A stretch of 64,000 nucleotides of DNA from Mesorhizobium sp. GTDB lineage: Bacteria > Pseudomonadota > Alphaproteobacteria > Rhizobiales > Rhizobiaceae. This document shows positions 59,700 through 64,000 of the stretch, piece after piece; position 1 is the first letter of the stretch; each line of letters begins with the position of its first letter. Under the pieces are notes generated by a model, which was not told the origin of the DNA, ran no database searches, and worked only from the letters and a program-made list of their open reading frames with translations. Both the position numbers and the translations under genes were made by a program. The stretch is taken from the NCBI GenBank assembly GCA_027492275.1, contig JAPUFC010000065.1, forward strand, positions 62,001 through 126,000, given 5' to 3'.

Positions 59700-60594
59700 T
59701 CAGGCCGCCTGCGCCATCCGCTCCGGCGGCAGGCGGTAGGAGATCGCCTCGGCAAGGTGGATGCGGCCGACCGTCTCCGAACCGTCCAGGTCGGCCAGCG
59801 TGCGCGCCACCCGCAGCACCCGGTGATAGGCGCGCGCCGACAGGCCGAGCTTTTCCCCGGCATCGCGCAGAAGGGCCTGTCCGGCCGCGTCGGGCATGGA
59901 TACCCTTTCCAGGATCGCGGTGGCGCAATGGGCGTTGGTGGCGGCGGTCCCGGCTCCGAGCCGCTCGTAGCGCGCGGCCTGCGCCTGGCGGGCGCGCGCC
60001 ACCCGGGCGGCGACCGCCGCGCTCGACTCGGCGCGGCCCGGCCTGACCAGGTCGGCCGCCGAGACGGCGGGCACGTCGATGCGCAGGTCGATGCGGTCGA
60101 GCAGCGGACCCGACAGCCGCGCCTGGTATTCGGTGCGGCAGCGGTCGCCCCGCGCGCAGCGGAAGCCCGGCTCGCCGGCCATGCCGCAACGGCACGGATT
60201 CATGGCGGCGACCAGCTGGATGCGGGCCGGGTAGGTGACGCAGCTGTTGGCCCGGGCGACGACGCACTCGCCCGATTCCAGCGGCTGGCGCAGCGCGTCG
60301 AGCGCCTGCGGCGAGAATTCGGGCAGTTCGTCGAGGAACAGCACGCCGCCATGCGCCAGCGAAACCTCGCCGGGGCGCACGCGCACGCCGCCGCCCGACG
60401 AGCGCGGCCATGGAGGCCGAATGGTGCGGGGCGCGAAACGGCCGGCGGTCGGTGAGCTTGCCGCCGGCCAGCTCGCCCGCGATCGAGGCGATCATCGAGA
60501 CCTCGAGCAGCTCCTTCGGCAGCAGCGGCGGCAGGATGGACGGCAGGCGCTGCGCCAGCATGGACTTGCCGGACCCCGGCGGCCCGACCATCAG
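59700..60594 (-). pseudogene. comM: comM/yifB (Mg-chelatase-like AAA+ ATPase), truncated by insertion and frameshifted
   Basis: C-terminal part of ComM, a helicase used in natural transformation. The intact segment starts at LMVGPPGSGKSMLAQRLPS (Walker A) at 60594; the preceding 200 or so residues are replaced by foreign DNA. RPFRAPHHSASMAALVG is followed by a 1-base insertion (GTCGGGCGGCGG for GTCGGCGGCGG, near 60390). The frame then continues with RVRPGEVSLAHGGVLFLDELPEF (Walker B) to the normal end ISYRLPPERMAQAA. Two independent lesions make it non-functional unless one is a sequencing error. Confidence 0.88.
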
Positions 60595-60604
60595 ATAATG
60601 TAAC
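60585..60604. other. Left junction of the integrated element (att site) in comM
   Basis: ComM-like coding sequence ends at about 60594 (CTG of LMVGPP) and A/T-rich DNA begins at 60595 (ATAATGTAACC). The recombinase gene starts 50 bp away, as is usual for serine integrases. The exact crossover dinucleotide cannot be set without the other end. Confidence 0.7.
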
Positions 60605-60612
60605 CAATTAAT

Positions 60613-60641
60613 TTGACATATTTGCAAGGTCGCAATAGATG
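60613..60641 (+). promoter_or_regulatory. Promoter of the serine recombinase, predicting a leaderless mRNA
   Basis: TTGACA at 60613-60618 and TAGATG at 60636-60641, exactly 17 nt apart. The expected start site coincides with the ATG at 60647, and there is no ribosome site. An inverted repeat AGGTC (60627) / GACCT (60641) overlaps the -10 and could be an operator. Confidence 0.6.
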
Positions 60642-60646
60642 ACCTC

Positions 60647-62461
60647 ATGCAAGACACTGCCCTCTCCCGGCCAGCGGCCTATTCCTACATCCGCATGTCT
60701 ACGAACCTTCAGCTTAAGGGCGACAGCCGCAGGCGGCAGTTGGAGCTTTCCGAGCAATACGCACGTGAAAACGGTCTCGAACTTGTCGCGGACTTCCAGT
60801 TGGAGGACATCGGAATATCGGCCTTCAAGGGGGCTAACCTCGCGGCAGGAAGCGCCTTGGGAGCATTCTTGCAGGCAATCCGCGGTGGAAAGATCCCTAC
60901 GGGGTCCTATCTGCTTGTGGAGTCGCTTGATCGACTCAGCAGGCAGGACGTCTTCTCGTCGCTCTCGCTGTTTACCGAGATCATCAAGAGCGGCGTCAAC
61001 ATCGTCACCTTGGCGGACAGGCAGACCTACGCGGCCGGCCAGACAGACTTCAGCCAGCTAGTTCTGTCGCTGGCGATCATGAGCCGTGCCCACGAGGAAT
61101 CGCGCACCAAGAGCTATCGGCTGAGCGAGGCGTGGACAAGCAAGCGAAGGAATGTCAGCCGGCGGAAACTCACCGCTCAATGTCCGGCTTGGCTTAGCCT
61201 TACGGCTGACAAAGAGAGCTTCATCGTTCTTGAAGACCGTGCCGCCATCGTCCAACGGATTTTCGAGGAATCTGCCTCCGGCATTGGAAATTATTCGATT
61301 GCCCGCCGTCTCAACAAAGCCGGTGTGCAGCCGTTTGGCCGCTCGCAGGGATGGCAGATATCATACATCAACAAGATTTTGACCAATCGGGCTGTTCTAG
61401 GCGAGTTCCAACCCCATCGTCTCTTTGAAGGACGGCGAATGCCTGAAGGCACTGCCATCCCCGGTTATTTTCCGCAGGTAGTGTCCGAGGAGTTGTTCTT
61501 GCGGGCGCAAGCAGGGCGGACGCAACGCCGGATCTCCGGCACCGGGCGAAAGGGCTACCTGATAACCAATCTGTTCTCAGGTCTCGCTAGATGCGCATAC
61601 TGTCGTGGACCGATGCACCTTCTGAACAAGGGGCACGGACCCAAAGGCGGCACGTATCTGGTCTGCGATACAGCGAACCGGGGCCTTGGATGCGAGAGAA
61701 CTAGCTGGCGCTATGACGACTTCGAGACGTCTTTCCTTGCTTTCGTAGAGGAGCTTGACTTGGAGCCGCTCGTTCGCAGTGAACATGATGCTGACGAAAG
61801 GAGGAAAGTCGATCAGGCCTTACAAGCGCTCTCTGGACAGATATCTCAGTTGCAGCGACAGCGGGAGCGAACGTATACGCTGCTAATGGAGGAAGAGGTC
61901 GTATCGGACTACCTTAAGCAGGAGCTGATCAGATGCGAACGGGAATTGGCGGCTGCCACCGACCGCCTGACCCAACTTGAGTCGGAACGGCGCGAGTTCG
62001 CAGCGAACGCTCTTCGCGTCTACGATAGCAAAGAACAGATTAAAGGTCTCATCCAACGGCTACGGCATGGAAGCCAAGAGGACGTATACCGCCTCCGCGC
62101 GCAGGTGGCAGCACGACTGAAGGCTCTTGTTACGTCGGTTACCGTGGCAACAGCGGGACAACGGCCACTTATTGAAAAAGCGATCAGAGAACTCGCGGAT
62201 TCTGGCGGGGAGGATGTTGGATCGGTAAGGGTTCAGGCCGCTCTTCAAACTGACGCCACGTCCATGCGTGCTGCCCATCGGTATTTCTCGGTGAGTTTTA
62301 AAGATGGAAGTTTGCGGATTGTGCATCCGGGGGCAAGCGATCCTCTTGTGGCGGAAAGACAAATCTACGGCTCGCAGCAGGAATTTATTCGTATGGAGGC
62401 AGACGGCCTCCCGGAGGCTTTTCTGAAGTCGAAAACCTTCAGTTCAAAAGGCTTGTCGTAA
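60647..62461 (+). CDS. Large serine recombinase (integrase)
   Basis: 604 residues. Resolvase domain (about 10-150) with the nucleophile Ser18 in YIRMSTNLQLKGDSRRRQ and the arginine-rich LLVESLDRLSRQD. The Recombinase domain (about 180-270) has AAIVQRIFEESASGIGNYSIARRLNKAG. A zinc ribbon (about 315-360) has CAYC ... C ... C, and a long coiled coil (about 380-450) follows, as needed for att-site synapsis. It integrates and, with a directionality factor, excises the element. Lower GC and different codon use mark it as foreign. It is adjacent to the left junction. Confidence 0.93.
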   Translation: MQDTALSRPAAYSYIRMSTNLQLKGDSRRRQLELSEQYARENGLELVADFQLEDIGISAFKGANLAAGSALGAFLQAIRGGKIPTGSYLLVESLDRLSRQDVFSSLSLFTEIIKSGVNIVTLADRQTYAAGQTDFSQLVLSLAIMSRAHEESRTKSYRLSEAWTSKRRNVSRRKLTAQCPAWLSLTADKESFIVLEDRAAIVQRIFEESASGIGNYSIARRLNKAGVQPFGRSQGWQISYINKILTNRAVLGEFQPHRLFEGRRMPEGTAIPGYFPQVVSEELFLRAQAGRTQRRISGTGRKGYLITNLFSGLARCAYCRGPMHLLNKGHGPKGGTYLVCDTANRGLGCERTSWRYDDFETSFLAFVEELDLEPLVRSEHDADERRKVDQALQALSGQISQLQRQRERTYTLLMEEEVVSDYLKQELIRCERELAAATDRLTQLESERREFAANALRVYDSKEQIKGLIQRLRHGSQEDVYRLRAQVAARLKALVTSVTVATAGQRPLIEKAIRELADSGGEDVGSVRVQAALQTDATSMRAAHRYFSVSFKDGSLRIVHPGASDPLVAERQIYGSQQEFIRMEADGLPEAFLKSKTFSSKGLS

Positions 62462-62506: not shown

Positions 62507-63070
62507 TCAATCCTTCTCTCCGCCGACATTACGGAGTTCGGTAATCGCCTTGGCGATGTGGTCGGCGGCGAGCCGGGTATCAAGTGCAGTCCACGTGACG
62601 AGGTTCTGCGGGATTTCGGACAGAGTATTCACCGATTTCACCTGCACCACGTCGACCCGCCTGTCCGGTTCCGGCCAGAAGATCAACAAGTCAGGACTCG
62701 GAGTATCCGACGCGGGCTCGGAGGAAGAAGCGCCGGTGGTTTCATCGAACGGACTCTGAGGTTGAGCGGCGACCGAAACCTGAGGCAGGAATTCGGGGGA
62801 AATCCGCTCCTTAAGGTGATCCATCACAGGCTCGACTGCAGCGGCAGAGGCTTTCTGCGCCTGTTTCAATGGAAGCCCTGCGTTACCCAGCTTCTTCAAT
62901 ATGTAAATGCGAACCACTTCGTCGAGGTCGACGCGAGTCCATCCGGCATCGTCTCTTCTAGGAAGGATATTTCGGTACCGCCACTCTCGCTGAAGGCCGG
63001 CCGAAACCCCGGTGACCGCTGCTATTTCAGCAGGAGTGAATTCCAACGAAGGAACACCATAACGCGGCAT
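62507..63070 (-). CDS. MerR/AlpA-like HTH regulator of the element
   Basis: 187 residues from the ATG at 63068-63070; a TTG 12 nt earlier is possible. Residues about 10-70 form a MerR-superfamily winged helix (FTPAEIAAVTGVSAGLQREWRYRNI, then VDLDEVVRIYILKKLGNAGLPL). The centre is low-complexity (Ser, Pro, Glu), and the C-terminal 70 residues (DLLIFWPEPDRRVDVVQVKSV) form an unrecognised domain. It could act as a repressor or as a recombination directionality factor. A perfect inverted repeat lies directly upstream. It is convergent with the recombinase gene. Confidence 0.75.
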   Translation of the reverse strand: MPRYGVPSLEFTPAEIAAVTGVSAGLQREWRYRNILPRRDDAGWTRVDLDEVVRIYILKKLGNAGLPLKQAQKASAAAVEPVMDHLKERISPEFLPQVSVAAQPQSPFDETTGASSSEPASDTPSPDLLIFWPEPDRRVDVVQVKSVNTLSEIPQNLVTWTALDTRLAADHIAKAITELRNVGGEKD

Positions 63071-63083
63071 TGTAAATCCCAAA

Positions 63084-63101: not shown

Positions 63102-63293
63102 CACAGCAGCGCTTCGTATACATTCAGGTTACCTGGACATCACTGAGCGCACCGAAGAAGCCGGTCCGTATCATGAATTCGCAAGCACACAAGTCTAACC
63201 CCATTCAATCCGTTGGCATTTCGTCCCATGGGAGCCGGCTGGTACAGTTCTCTGCCATGCAGAGCCACTGAGAAAGTGGACGAACGGCTTCAT

Positions 63294-64000
63294 ATGGACC
63301 GTTCTTCCGAGGGAGAAGAACCTGCGCTGTCGGCCGCATGCAGCCTAGCGACTACTCGGAAGCTTCGGCTCTCGATCAATGCTGGCATCGTCAACAAGAC
63401 TGTTCCAGATAACAGCCTTTACGTCGACGGCTGGGAGAACGTCGAACTAACGATCGCCGAGTTTGCGGAGGCGGTTGCCGGACAGGGCCATGCCTACTGC
63501 GCGCAGCTCAAAGGAAGAAGGGAAAGCAGGAACTTCCTGGCCTCCGACATCGTGTCCGTGGACGTCGACCACGGCATGACGATCGAGGAGGCCTTGGCAA
63601 ACCCACTGGTGAGGGACAGCGCCGCCCTCCTCTACCCCACGTCCAGCCACACCGACGCCGACCCCAAGTTCCGCATCGTCTTCGTCACCCCCAGAACCAT
63701 TACCGATCCCAATGAGATGGAGGCCATCTCCCGGAGTTTAGCACTGCGTCTCATGGGCGATTCGGCAGTTACCGATGCTGCCCACCTGTTTTTCGGTCAT
63801 CGTGGCGTGGAGAGCATCATGATCGGCCGGCAGCTCGGGGAGGTTCTTGTGGCAGAGTTGATCGCGCAGGGAAAGATCGCGAAGGGCAAGCGGCAGCTCG
63901 ACAGCCGCAATTCGTCCTTGATCGTCGCCGCGAACGTCGCAGTCCGCCTTGCGGACGATCAAGTCCTCCCCTTGCAGGATGTTGTCGGAAGACCGTCGGC
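63294..64000 (+). CDS. Primase-polymerase-like replication protein, N-terminal part
   Basis: The frame is open from 63177 and leaves the window without a stop; ATG at 63294 is preferred, ATG 63228 is an alternative. About 235 residues are visible. The order IVSVDVDHGMTIEE, then LLYPTSSHTDADPKFRIVFVTP, then VTDAAHLFFGHRG fits the archaeo-eukaryotic primase core: motif I DxD, motif II SxH, and a third conserved region ending FFG. Such proteins start replication of plasmids, phages and satellites, usually with a C-terminal helicase that would lie beyond the window. It is divergent from the HTH gene. Confidence 0.7.
   Translation, partial: MDRSSEGEEPALSAACSLATTRKLRLSINAGIVNKTVPDNSLYVDGWENVELTIAEFAEAVAGQGHAYCAQLKGRRESRNFLASDIVSVDVDHGMTIEEALANPLVRDSAALLYPTSSHTDADPKFRIVFVTPRTITDPNEMEAISRSLALRLMGDSAVTDAAHLFFGHRGVESIMIGRQLGEVLVAELIAQGKIAKGKRQLDSRNSSLIVAANVAVRLADDQVLPLQDVVGRPS

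Follow-up and report, generated by a model that had tools for sequence, protein, structure and literature searches.

The 64,000-nucleotide stretch of Mesorhizobium sp. DNA analyzed here (the window; bases 62001-126000 of a 190-kb contig) runs into an 18.8-kb island that interrupts comM immediately ahead of its Walker A codons. Very likely, this is an integrative island that was inserted by its own large serine recombinase (LSR), with the comM codons supplying the two facing half-sites. The codons around the stretch GGHNLLMVGPP encode an imperfect palindrome centered on the crossover dinucleotide, and this palindrome seems to be what matters. We consider it probable, with some reserve, that the rule is a broader one: Gly and Pro codons (GGN...CCN) at a fixed distance would write a near-palindrome whatever synonymous codons are used, and one LSR family would exploit a pair of such places in comM, plus one resembling them in comEC, a change of the two-base core being sufficient to hop between them. 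The insertion, its two ends, the shared cores, the symmetry of attP, and the two comM sites with their predicted likeness can be read from the sequences themselves.

comM is split at the right end of the window

A preliminary description of the window had noticed that comM is cut and that an LSR gene lies beside its C-terminal part, and we confirmed this observation. The features at this end of the window, and one locus beyond it, are as follows:

59700..60594, minus strand: C-terminal part of comM (from codon 214, Walker A included), found by tblastn with comM
60575..60615, no strand: attL, made up of the host half-site (60575-60592), the core, and the island half-site (60595-60615)
60593..60594, no strand: probable crossover dinucleotide AG (CT on the comM coding strand), placed within the shared ATCAGA at 60590-60595
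60647..62461, plus strand: LSR, 604 aa, the island integrase (Pfam, PHROG, catalytic residues)
62507..63082, minus strand: 191-aa frame, weakly similar to the MerR-type helix-turn-helix (PF13411, E 0.0068, under the curated cut-off)
63213..64000, plus strand: first 788 bases of the gene for a 1004-aa replication protein (PF02399, E 4e-12; phrog_4913 'replication', E 1.6e-58)
window-equivalent 73698-79212, contig C65, outside the window: type II CBASS locus (L004:16699-19987 and L005:2980-5213)

The tblastn search matched comM residues 212-278 and 291-510 at 59700..60594 in two frames; the C-terminal part of the resident comM carries a +1 frameshift at about 60390-60400, which may represent decay or an assembly error. 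Matches to comM also end at residues 274-284, near the place of this frameshift, in G085, G132, G101, and G424. On the plus strand, the comM stretch ends in ...GGCGGCCCGACCATCAGA and is followed by AT-rich foreign DNA and then by the LSR gene from 60647 onward. The absent N-terminal half of comM, which contains ChlI, was found 18.8 kb away at window-equivalent 79408-80055 (E 2.1e-40), and at the island border it runs into LLIL and then a stop. Both halves reside on the same 190-kb contig, and the piece inserted between them measures 18.82 kb. The two island ends have ATCAGA in common, at 60590-60595 and, outside the window, at C65:141412-141417 (window-equivalent 79412-79417). The GC content of the island is 0.579, compared to 0.697 and 0.689 for the flanks (with the right border set one base off). 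When the host flanks were joined in silico, the open reading frame read through GGHNLLMVGPPGSGKS, matching the intact same-family comM of L028, and comM then read ...AAAGGHNLLMVGPPGSGKSMLAQ..., like its intact relatives.

These data agree with the preliminary description on each point that concerns the junction. It had placed the junction at 60585-60604, and the shared ATCAGA falls inside this interval; it had named a serine integrase as the enzyme, and the LSR gene adjoins the junction; it had named comM immediately ahead of the Walker A codons as the target, which the two comM halves and the ATCAGA at both ends bear out. Following its suggestions, we inspected the far end for the missing comM half and a shared core, both of which are present there, and compared the joined flanks with an intact comM, the L028 gene, like which they read.

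The recombinase and the cargo of the island

The LSR matched PF07508 (E 4.7e-15) and PF13408 (E 8.1e-11), both over cut-off, and a PHROG integrase profile (E 4.6e-69), and its recombinase and zinc-ribbon domains follow an N-terminal catalytic domain. Residues 11-141 gave one weak match in the PDB, to a structure of the resolvase family (E 2.5e-4); at E 0.001, no hit to PF00239 itself was reported. Residues Y14, R16, S18, Q22, D95, R96, and R99 were invariant in 15 aligned LSRs, our own included, so that the YxRxS motif is present; we take the invariant Tyr, Ser, and Arg residues to be catalytic. The sites are of the LSR type as well, with a short shared core and with attP and attB imperfectly symmetric about a dinucleotide, the island's own attP being offset by one base. 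In a phage collection, 71 records contained LSR relatives, all of them below 60% identity and none covering 80% of the query.

Cargo calls were based on Pfam, PADLOC, and PHROG scans of the larger island frames, a subset of all frames. Besides the LSR, the weakly MerR-like frame, and the 1004-aa replication protein, the scans recognized a tyrosine integrase, a small resolvase, a UvrD-type helicase, and two frames that resemble superinfection-immunity and tail-completion proteins. The 191-aa MerR-like frame had no PHROG match and is a candidate regulator or directionality factor. The replication protein is of the origin-binding helicase/primase type, and its gene ends beyond the window, at window-equivalent 66227. 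A type II CBASS locus occupies the far end of the island, with Cap15/2TM, JAB, E1-E2, a DncV-like cyclase, and a patatin phospholipase; the predicted CD-NTase, E1-E2 Cap2, JAB Cap3, and effector genes, a set typical of type II, lie together in 5.5 kb. Two candidate effectors are present in this locus, the patatin, which is divergent from the cyclase, and Cap15/2TM at the other end of the operon. Among the frames scanned, no relaxase or capsid gene was recognized and no transposition genes of the TniA/TnsB type were found; the junction has an LSR-type core. The island looks like a satellite or defense island that integrates with its own LSR. Since a tyrosine integrase (L004:11680-12984; window-equivalent 68679-69983) and a small resolvase/invertase (L004:10297-10878; window-equivalent 67296-67877) lie within the LSR island, it may be a composite of two elements.

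Use of the Walker A site in other genomes

Relatives of the LSR (E <= 1e-20) were sought in 397 genomes of the order and were present in 21 of them, the genome under study included. We looked for comM first in the LSR neighborhoods and then in the whole genomes, and found it cut at residues 210-217, with the LSR beside or near it, in 18 of these 21; in four of the 18 (G076, G251, G242, G005) the comM halves are on separate contigs. As for the remaining three, G019 and G209 possess an intact comM, while in G336 the gene is broken near residues 67-85 by something else.

A scan of named genomes with an LSR alignment yielded 400 relatives, the best 80 of which were kept. With these, 101 loci were available: 54 at the Walker A site of comM (site 1), 18 at comM residues 30-34 (site 2), eight in comEC, one in comF, and 20 that could not be placed in a competence gene. 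These shares are biased toward comM, since the query had been built from comM-inserted LSRs. The hosts with an occupied Walker A site include Alpha-, Beta-, and Gammaproteobacteria, Thermodesulfobacteriota, and two Verrucomicrobiota metagenome bins, in line with the earlier suggestion that a site inside an invariant motif would serve many hosts.

Several of these assignments need qualification. L140 was put at site 1 from an LSR identical to that of L139, with comM 211-510 about 19 kb away. Six of the 18 site-2 calls (L096, L102, L110, L113, L146, L164) were made from a break in comM at residue 30-31 anywhere in the genome and not from its position next to the LSR in the fetched stretch. The unplaced loci are L017 (with a phage portal upstream), L025, L026, L105, L106, L121, L122, L125, L128, L147, L156, L158, L161, L165, L169, L170, L171, L172, L173, and L175; L158 and L157 are identical copies on one contig. 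In G085, G132, and G158, comM is truncated at residues 279-306, and a Tn7-like element was considered as a possible reason; the scanned frames next to these junctions yielded an IS1595-type transposase, in G158, and no other transposase.

In G136, 791 bp of the comM 5' half and upstream DNA are repeated with 98.1% identity (L057 4418-5207 and 16982-17772); one copy stops at an island junction resembling the one in G323, and the other belongs to a complete comM. No LSR relative was found in G136. It looks as if comM had been restored by recombination while the island, or a remnant of it, stayed. The genome of L120 (G404) has comM pieces 1-34, 133-220, and 211-508 on three contigs; possibly, both comM sites are occupied in this one genome.

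The probable crossover dinucleotide at comM site 1

Fifteen of the 18 elements from the order were compared at both junctions; G216 and G035, whose GSPG/GAPG motif was missed by the search pattern, and G251, whose N side lies at a contig end, were left out. The same dinucleotide was present at both ends in 14 of the 15 (CT in 12, TT in 2), and the ends of the remaining element, in G191, carry unlike dinucleotides (TT, CT). The common dinucleotide occupies codon positions 1 and 2 of the second Leu in GGHNLLMVGPP, and in G363 and G312 the shared run is exactly these two bases. It was this comparison of 15 insertions that narrowed the probable crossover within ATCAGA to CT. attP was symmetric about exactly that dinucleotide in 14 of 15 elements, the exception being the island in the window, whose attP fits best one base off the CT center (16/24, vs. 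9/24 at CT). Since the attP arms fit best in that register, the dinucleotide of this island could be TG on the coding strand. Single C-side junctions (n = 41) gave CT 35 times, TT four times, and AT and TG once each; N sides (n = 17, with 3 of 20 left out because the motif was not found) gave CT 12, TT 2, AT 2, and TG 1. The second Pro was present in 41 of 41 C sides, but the search pattern demanded this Pro.

A palindrome encoded by conserved codons, and a second site in comM

When the first base of the first Gly codon is numbered 0, the inverted repeat consists of the pairs 0/31, 1/30, 3/28, and 4/27; it is formed by the Gly-Gly and Pro-Pro codons, and its center, between bases 15 and 16, is the crossover dinucleotide. 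We scanned 37 intact comM genes for palindromes (41 loci were given, and four split ones fell out). Site 1 ranked first among 1,496 palindrome centers (z 3.75), and the GG/CC pair was present there in all 37 genes; site 2 ranked tenth (z 2.73). In four runs of synonymous resampling, site 1 was first each time, and site 2 took ranks 4 to 13. Site 1 thus keeps its rank after synonymous recoding, and its symmetry therefore stems from the protein sequence.

The second site is codon 32, in A-P-G-K-x-G-M-x-I-V-G-L-P-D, and comM is cut near it in family members such as L103, L104, L109, and L114. Thirteen of these elements were fetched, and in all seven that could be read at both ends the shared dinucleotide, which is the first two bases of codon 32, agrees with the center of attP. 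The spacing of Gly27 and Pro37 from codon 32 equals that of the first Gly and the second Pro at site 1.

In a held-out test, a half-site weight matrix derived from site 1 only ranked site 2 second of 1,492 positions, after site 1 itself. Averaged over the 37 comM genes, site 2 scored 1.55, the next position -15.2, and the mean was -44.9 with a standard deviation of 9.3. The window's own empty site scored 40.2 compared to a maximum of 9.0 over 63,962 window positions; seven of these 63,962 positions score at least as high as site 2 does on average, so that the matrix by itself falls short of full specificity. A simple GG-N13-NN-N13-CC rule was dismissed as a sufficient description: residue 118 fits it in 86% of the 37 comM genes, and no insertion was seen there. 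Residue 118 is absent from the top 12 of the full weight matrix. The held-out ranking alone is independent of the GG/CC rule, since this rule had been read off both comM sites.

Orientation and switching between sites

The LSRs of L107 (site 1) and L109 (site 2) show 87% identity, and 6.3 kb of the two islands align at 83%. The island ends that adjoin the core read GATGTTG-GG--AATTAATTT in both; one core is AG, and the other is GA. A tree of 95 LSRs was built by a quick method; 25 of its forks are open, and two long branches (L020, L021) join each other. On this tree, the site-2 label requires nine changes for 16 rows; the short proteins of L023, L105, L113, L120, L126, and L147 had been dropped. 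Reversed orientation at site 1 requires 10 changes for 12 rows, and 44 of 500 shuffles were as low, which is near random scatter. The scattered orientation and the switch of site fit an enzyme that reads a symmetric site and leaves the orientation to the core.

Insertions in comEC and probably comF

Eight family members were placed in comEC directly and two by inference, and one was placed, weakly, in comF. The fragments upstream of L118, L153, L154, and L160 match the ComEC Competence domain and are broken at model positions 24-28, with L153 and L154 scoring below the curated cut-off for this domain. DUF4131, which we take to be the N-terminal region of ComEC, was matched in L153, L154, L160, L135, and L141, and L145 and L157 match other comEC loci by tblastn. 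L151 was assigned to comF less surely, from a weak double zinc-ribbon match (E 3.1e-4, below cut-off) and our reading of a PRTase-like motif. The two inferred cases, L121 and L128, are counted among the unplaced loci; they are probably comEC insertions, since their frames of 544 and 560 aa resemble in length the split copies (520-547 aa in five genomes and 669 aa in that of L118, with the copy of G424 being broken further); whole-looking comEC frames in four genomes have 732-873 aa.

Five comEC cases could be read at both ends. There, the dinucleotide (AG in four, TC in one) starts the Ser codon in HLM-S-ISGLH, and with a matrix built from the two comM sites, the comEC site is outscored by 2, 3, 12, 31, and 63 host positions, respectively, out of about 1,500. 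The GG/CC rule was tried for comEC and given up, as it fails at +/-15 in the five attB sequences; only the likeness by matrix holds. On the LSR tree, the users of comEC and comF make up a single cluster of 12 rows (support 94) among the comM users. In the genome of L154 (G424, Dechloromonas), comEC seems to be broken twice, with two parts of its C-terminal half 20 kb apart, and comM, at another place in this genome, has a split at residues 274-284. A betaproteobacterial query did not find comEC in the genome from which the window derives.

It had been suggested that independent elements may favor the loss of comM, and this suggestion is supported only in part. The comM users in our sample belong to one LSR family, and most comM insertions are therefore not independent inventions. 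Members of the family are inserted in comEC and, probably, in comF too.

Alternative explanations

The codon-encoded site has to be weighed against readings in which the DNA motif matters less or not at all. It is hardly credible that comM was not split by the LSR and that a rearrangement or an assembly join placed unrelated DNA beside it: the genome is a draft in 97 contigs and its comM is frameshifted, but both comM halves lie on one 190-kb contig with a matching core and 17 other genomes have a like split, so that this reading is already contradicted. We also think it unlikely that conservation of the site reflects nothing but the conservation and dispensability of comM, with a palindrome that is there by coincidence. 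The Walker A motif is conserved in the hosts seen, and any enzyme fixed there would look alike; moreover, the palindromicity of site 2 is only tenth among the 1,496 centers. Such a coincidence sits poorly, however, with the held-out matrix, which was derived from site 1 and ranked site 2 second of 1,492, with an attP symmetry that is centered on the shared-core dinucleotide at both sites, and with insertion in both orientations.

Selection may instead pick the gene. LSR lineages that break competence genes would persist because the host can no longer recombine incoming DNA and cure itself; comM, comEC, and comF would be targeted for their function, with the DNA motif being secondary. We hold this to be quite possible, though short of probable. 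In its favor, 81 of the 101 loci are in competence genes and two more are probably in comEC, the 12-row cluster of comEC and comF users sits among comM users, and the available text of two earlier studies reports an enrichment of competence genes among LSR targets (PMC10083194) and a model of conflict with transformation (PMC4774983). Yet the comEC site scores high with the comM-site matrix, so that site likeness alone could explain the hop; 20 of the 101 loci were not placed in a competence gene, and the sample was drawn with comM-inserted LSRs as query. The failure of the betaproteobacterial query to find comEC in the window's genome and the complete comM of G136, which keeps its island, also speak against selection on the gene, as do pneumococcal prophages, whose competence-inhibiting sites are hit, according to the accessible part of the report, by independently evolved integrases (PMC12637031), unlike the one-family pattern observed here. 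The overall pattern fits a possible gain for the elements from breaking competence, but motif likeness explains part of it. Since motif likeness and gene function can be separated, the idea of a purposeful breaking of competence genes becomes testable: the predictive value of the motif can be compared across the two comM sites, comEC, and comF.

Proposed mechanism

In the codon-encoded reading, the LSR would recognize two half-site copies that face each other around the crossover dinucleotide. The pair in comM would be provided by the codons of the conserved stretch G-G-H-N-L-L-M-V-G-P-P, where GGN for the first Gly and CCN for the second Pro would put GG and CC about 15 bases to either side of the dinucleotide and the inner codons would contribute more symmetric positions. 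Because the half-site bases would be largely fixed by the protein sequence, attB would be present in most hosts. The place at codon 32 would offer the same half-site pattern to other members of the family. What the core does in serine integrases is well established; at a nearly symmetric site, the core dinucleotide alone would set the orientation, so that members could insert in either direction, and a small change of the core may suffice for moving between sites. As the insertion parts ChlI from the ATPase, ComM should be inactivated. The protein contacts, the excision of the island, and this loss of ComM function are steps that we infer.

Such a mechanism would provide a concrete reason for one conserved gene drawing many serine integrases, the target being fixed by protein constraint and not by DNA conservation as such. 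The codon palindrome may also explain the use of the same spot by LSR relatives in very different bacteria. If this is true, integrase landing sites would be predictable from protein motifs, which could aid in choosing integrases for new hosts.

Comparison with known systems

The integrase of the Listeria phage A118 is an LSR that inserts in the competence gene comK; its gene, host, and LSR branch differ from those of the comM island. The host of the Wolbachia prophage WO sr1 is alphaproteobacterial. As described in the accessible part of PMC9203015, this element has a serine recombinase and resides in a magnesium chelatase gene, portions of which lie on either side; WO sr1 is a prophage, whereas the island described here is a defense island.

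Elements inserted in comM are also on record from Acinetobacter, Aggregatibacter, and others, AbaR islands included, in the available portions of two papers (PMC11472951, PMC4774983). They share with our island the split comM and, often, a defense cargo; the comM of A. baumannii is often found interrupted, and a CBASS locus is stated to be the insert '40% of the times' (PMC11472951). The AbaR islands are Tn7-like according to the same portion (PMC11472951), whereas the island here is of the LSR type. Croucher et al. (2016, PMC4774983), in the part consulted, list elements in comM, comEC, comYC, comFA, and comK and argue for a conflict with transformation. For pneumococcal prophages, the available text of a 2025 study presents an integrase tree that points to independently evolved integrases for competence-inhibiting sites (PMC12637031).

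No account of a codon-encoded, two-site attB rule was found in the literature, as represented mainly by open-access main texts, which is weak evidence of novelty; in the main text of PMC6222049, no passage on Walker A was found. The closest precedent is that of Durrant et al. (2022, PMC10083194), in whose available text 12.4% of the predicted site-specific LSRs target a magnesium chelatase/ATP-dependent protease gene and competence genes are enriched among LSR targets. Enzyme class and target gene are the same as here, and both comM halves flank our element with the LSR inside; the main text of that paper, in the part available, neither locates the site within the gene nor mentions a codon-encoded symmetry or another site in comM. 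Both LSRs that target the magnesium chelatase gene and the enrichment of competence genes among LSR targets have thus been published (PMC10083194, available text), and the island described here is of that kind; what our analysis appears to add is a mechanism-level account of why the site recurs, supported by the held-out prediction.
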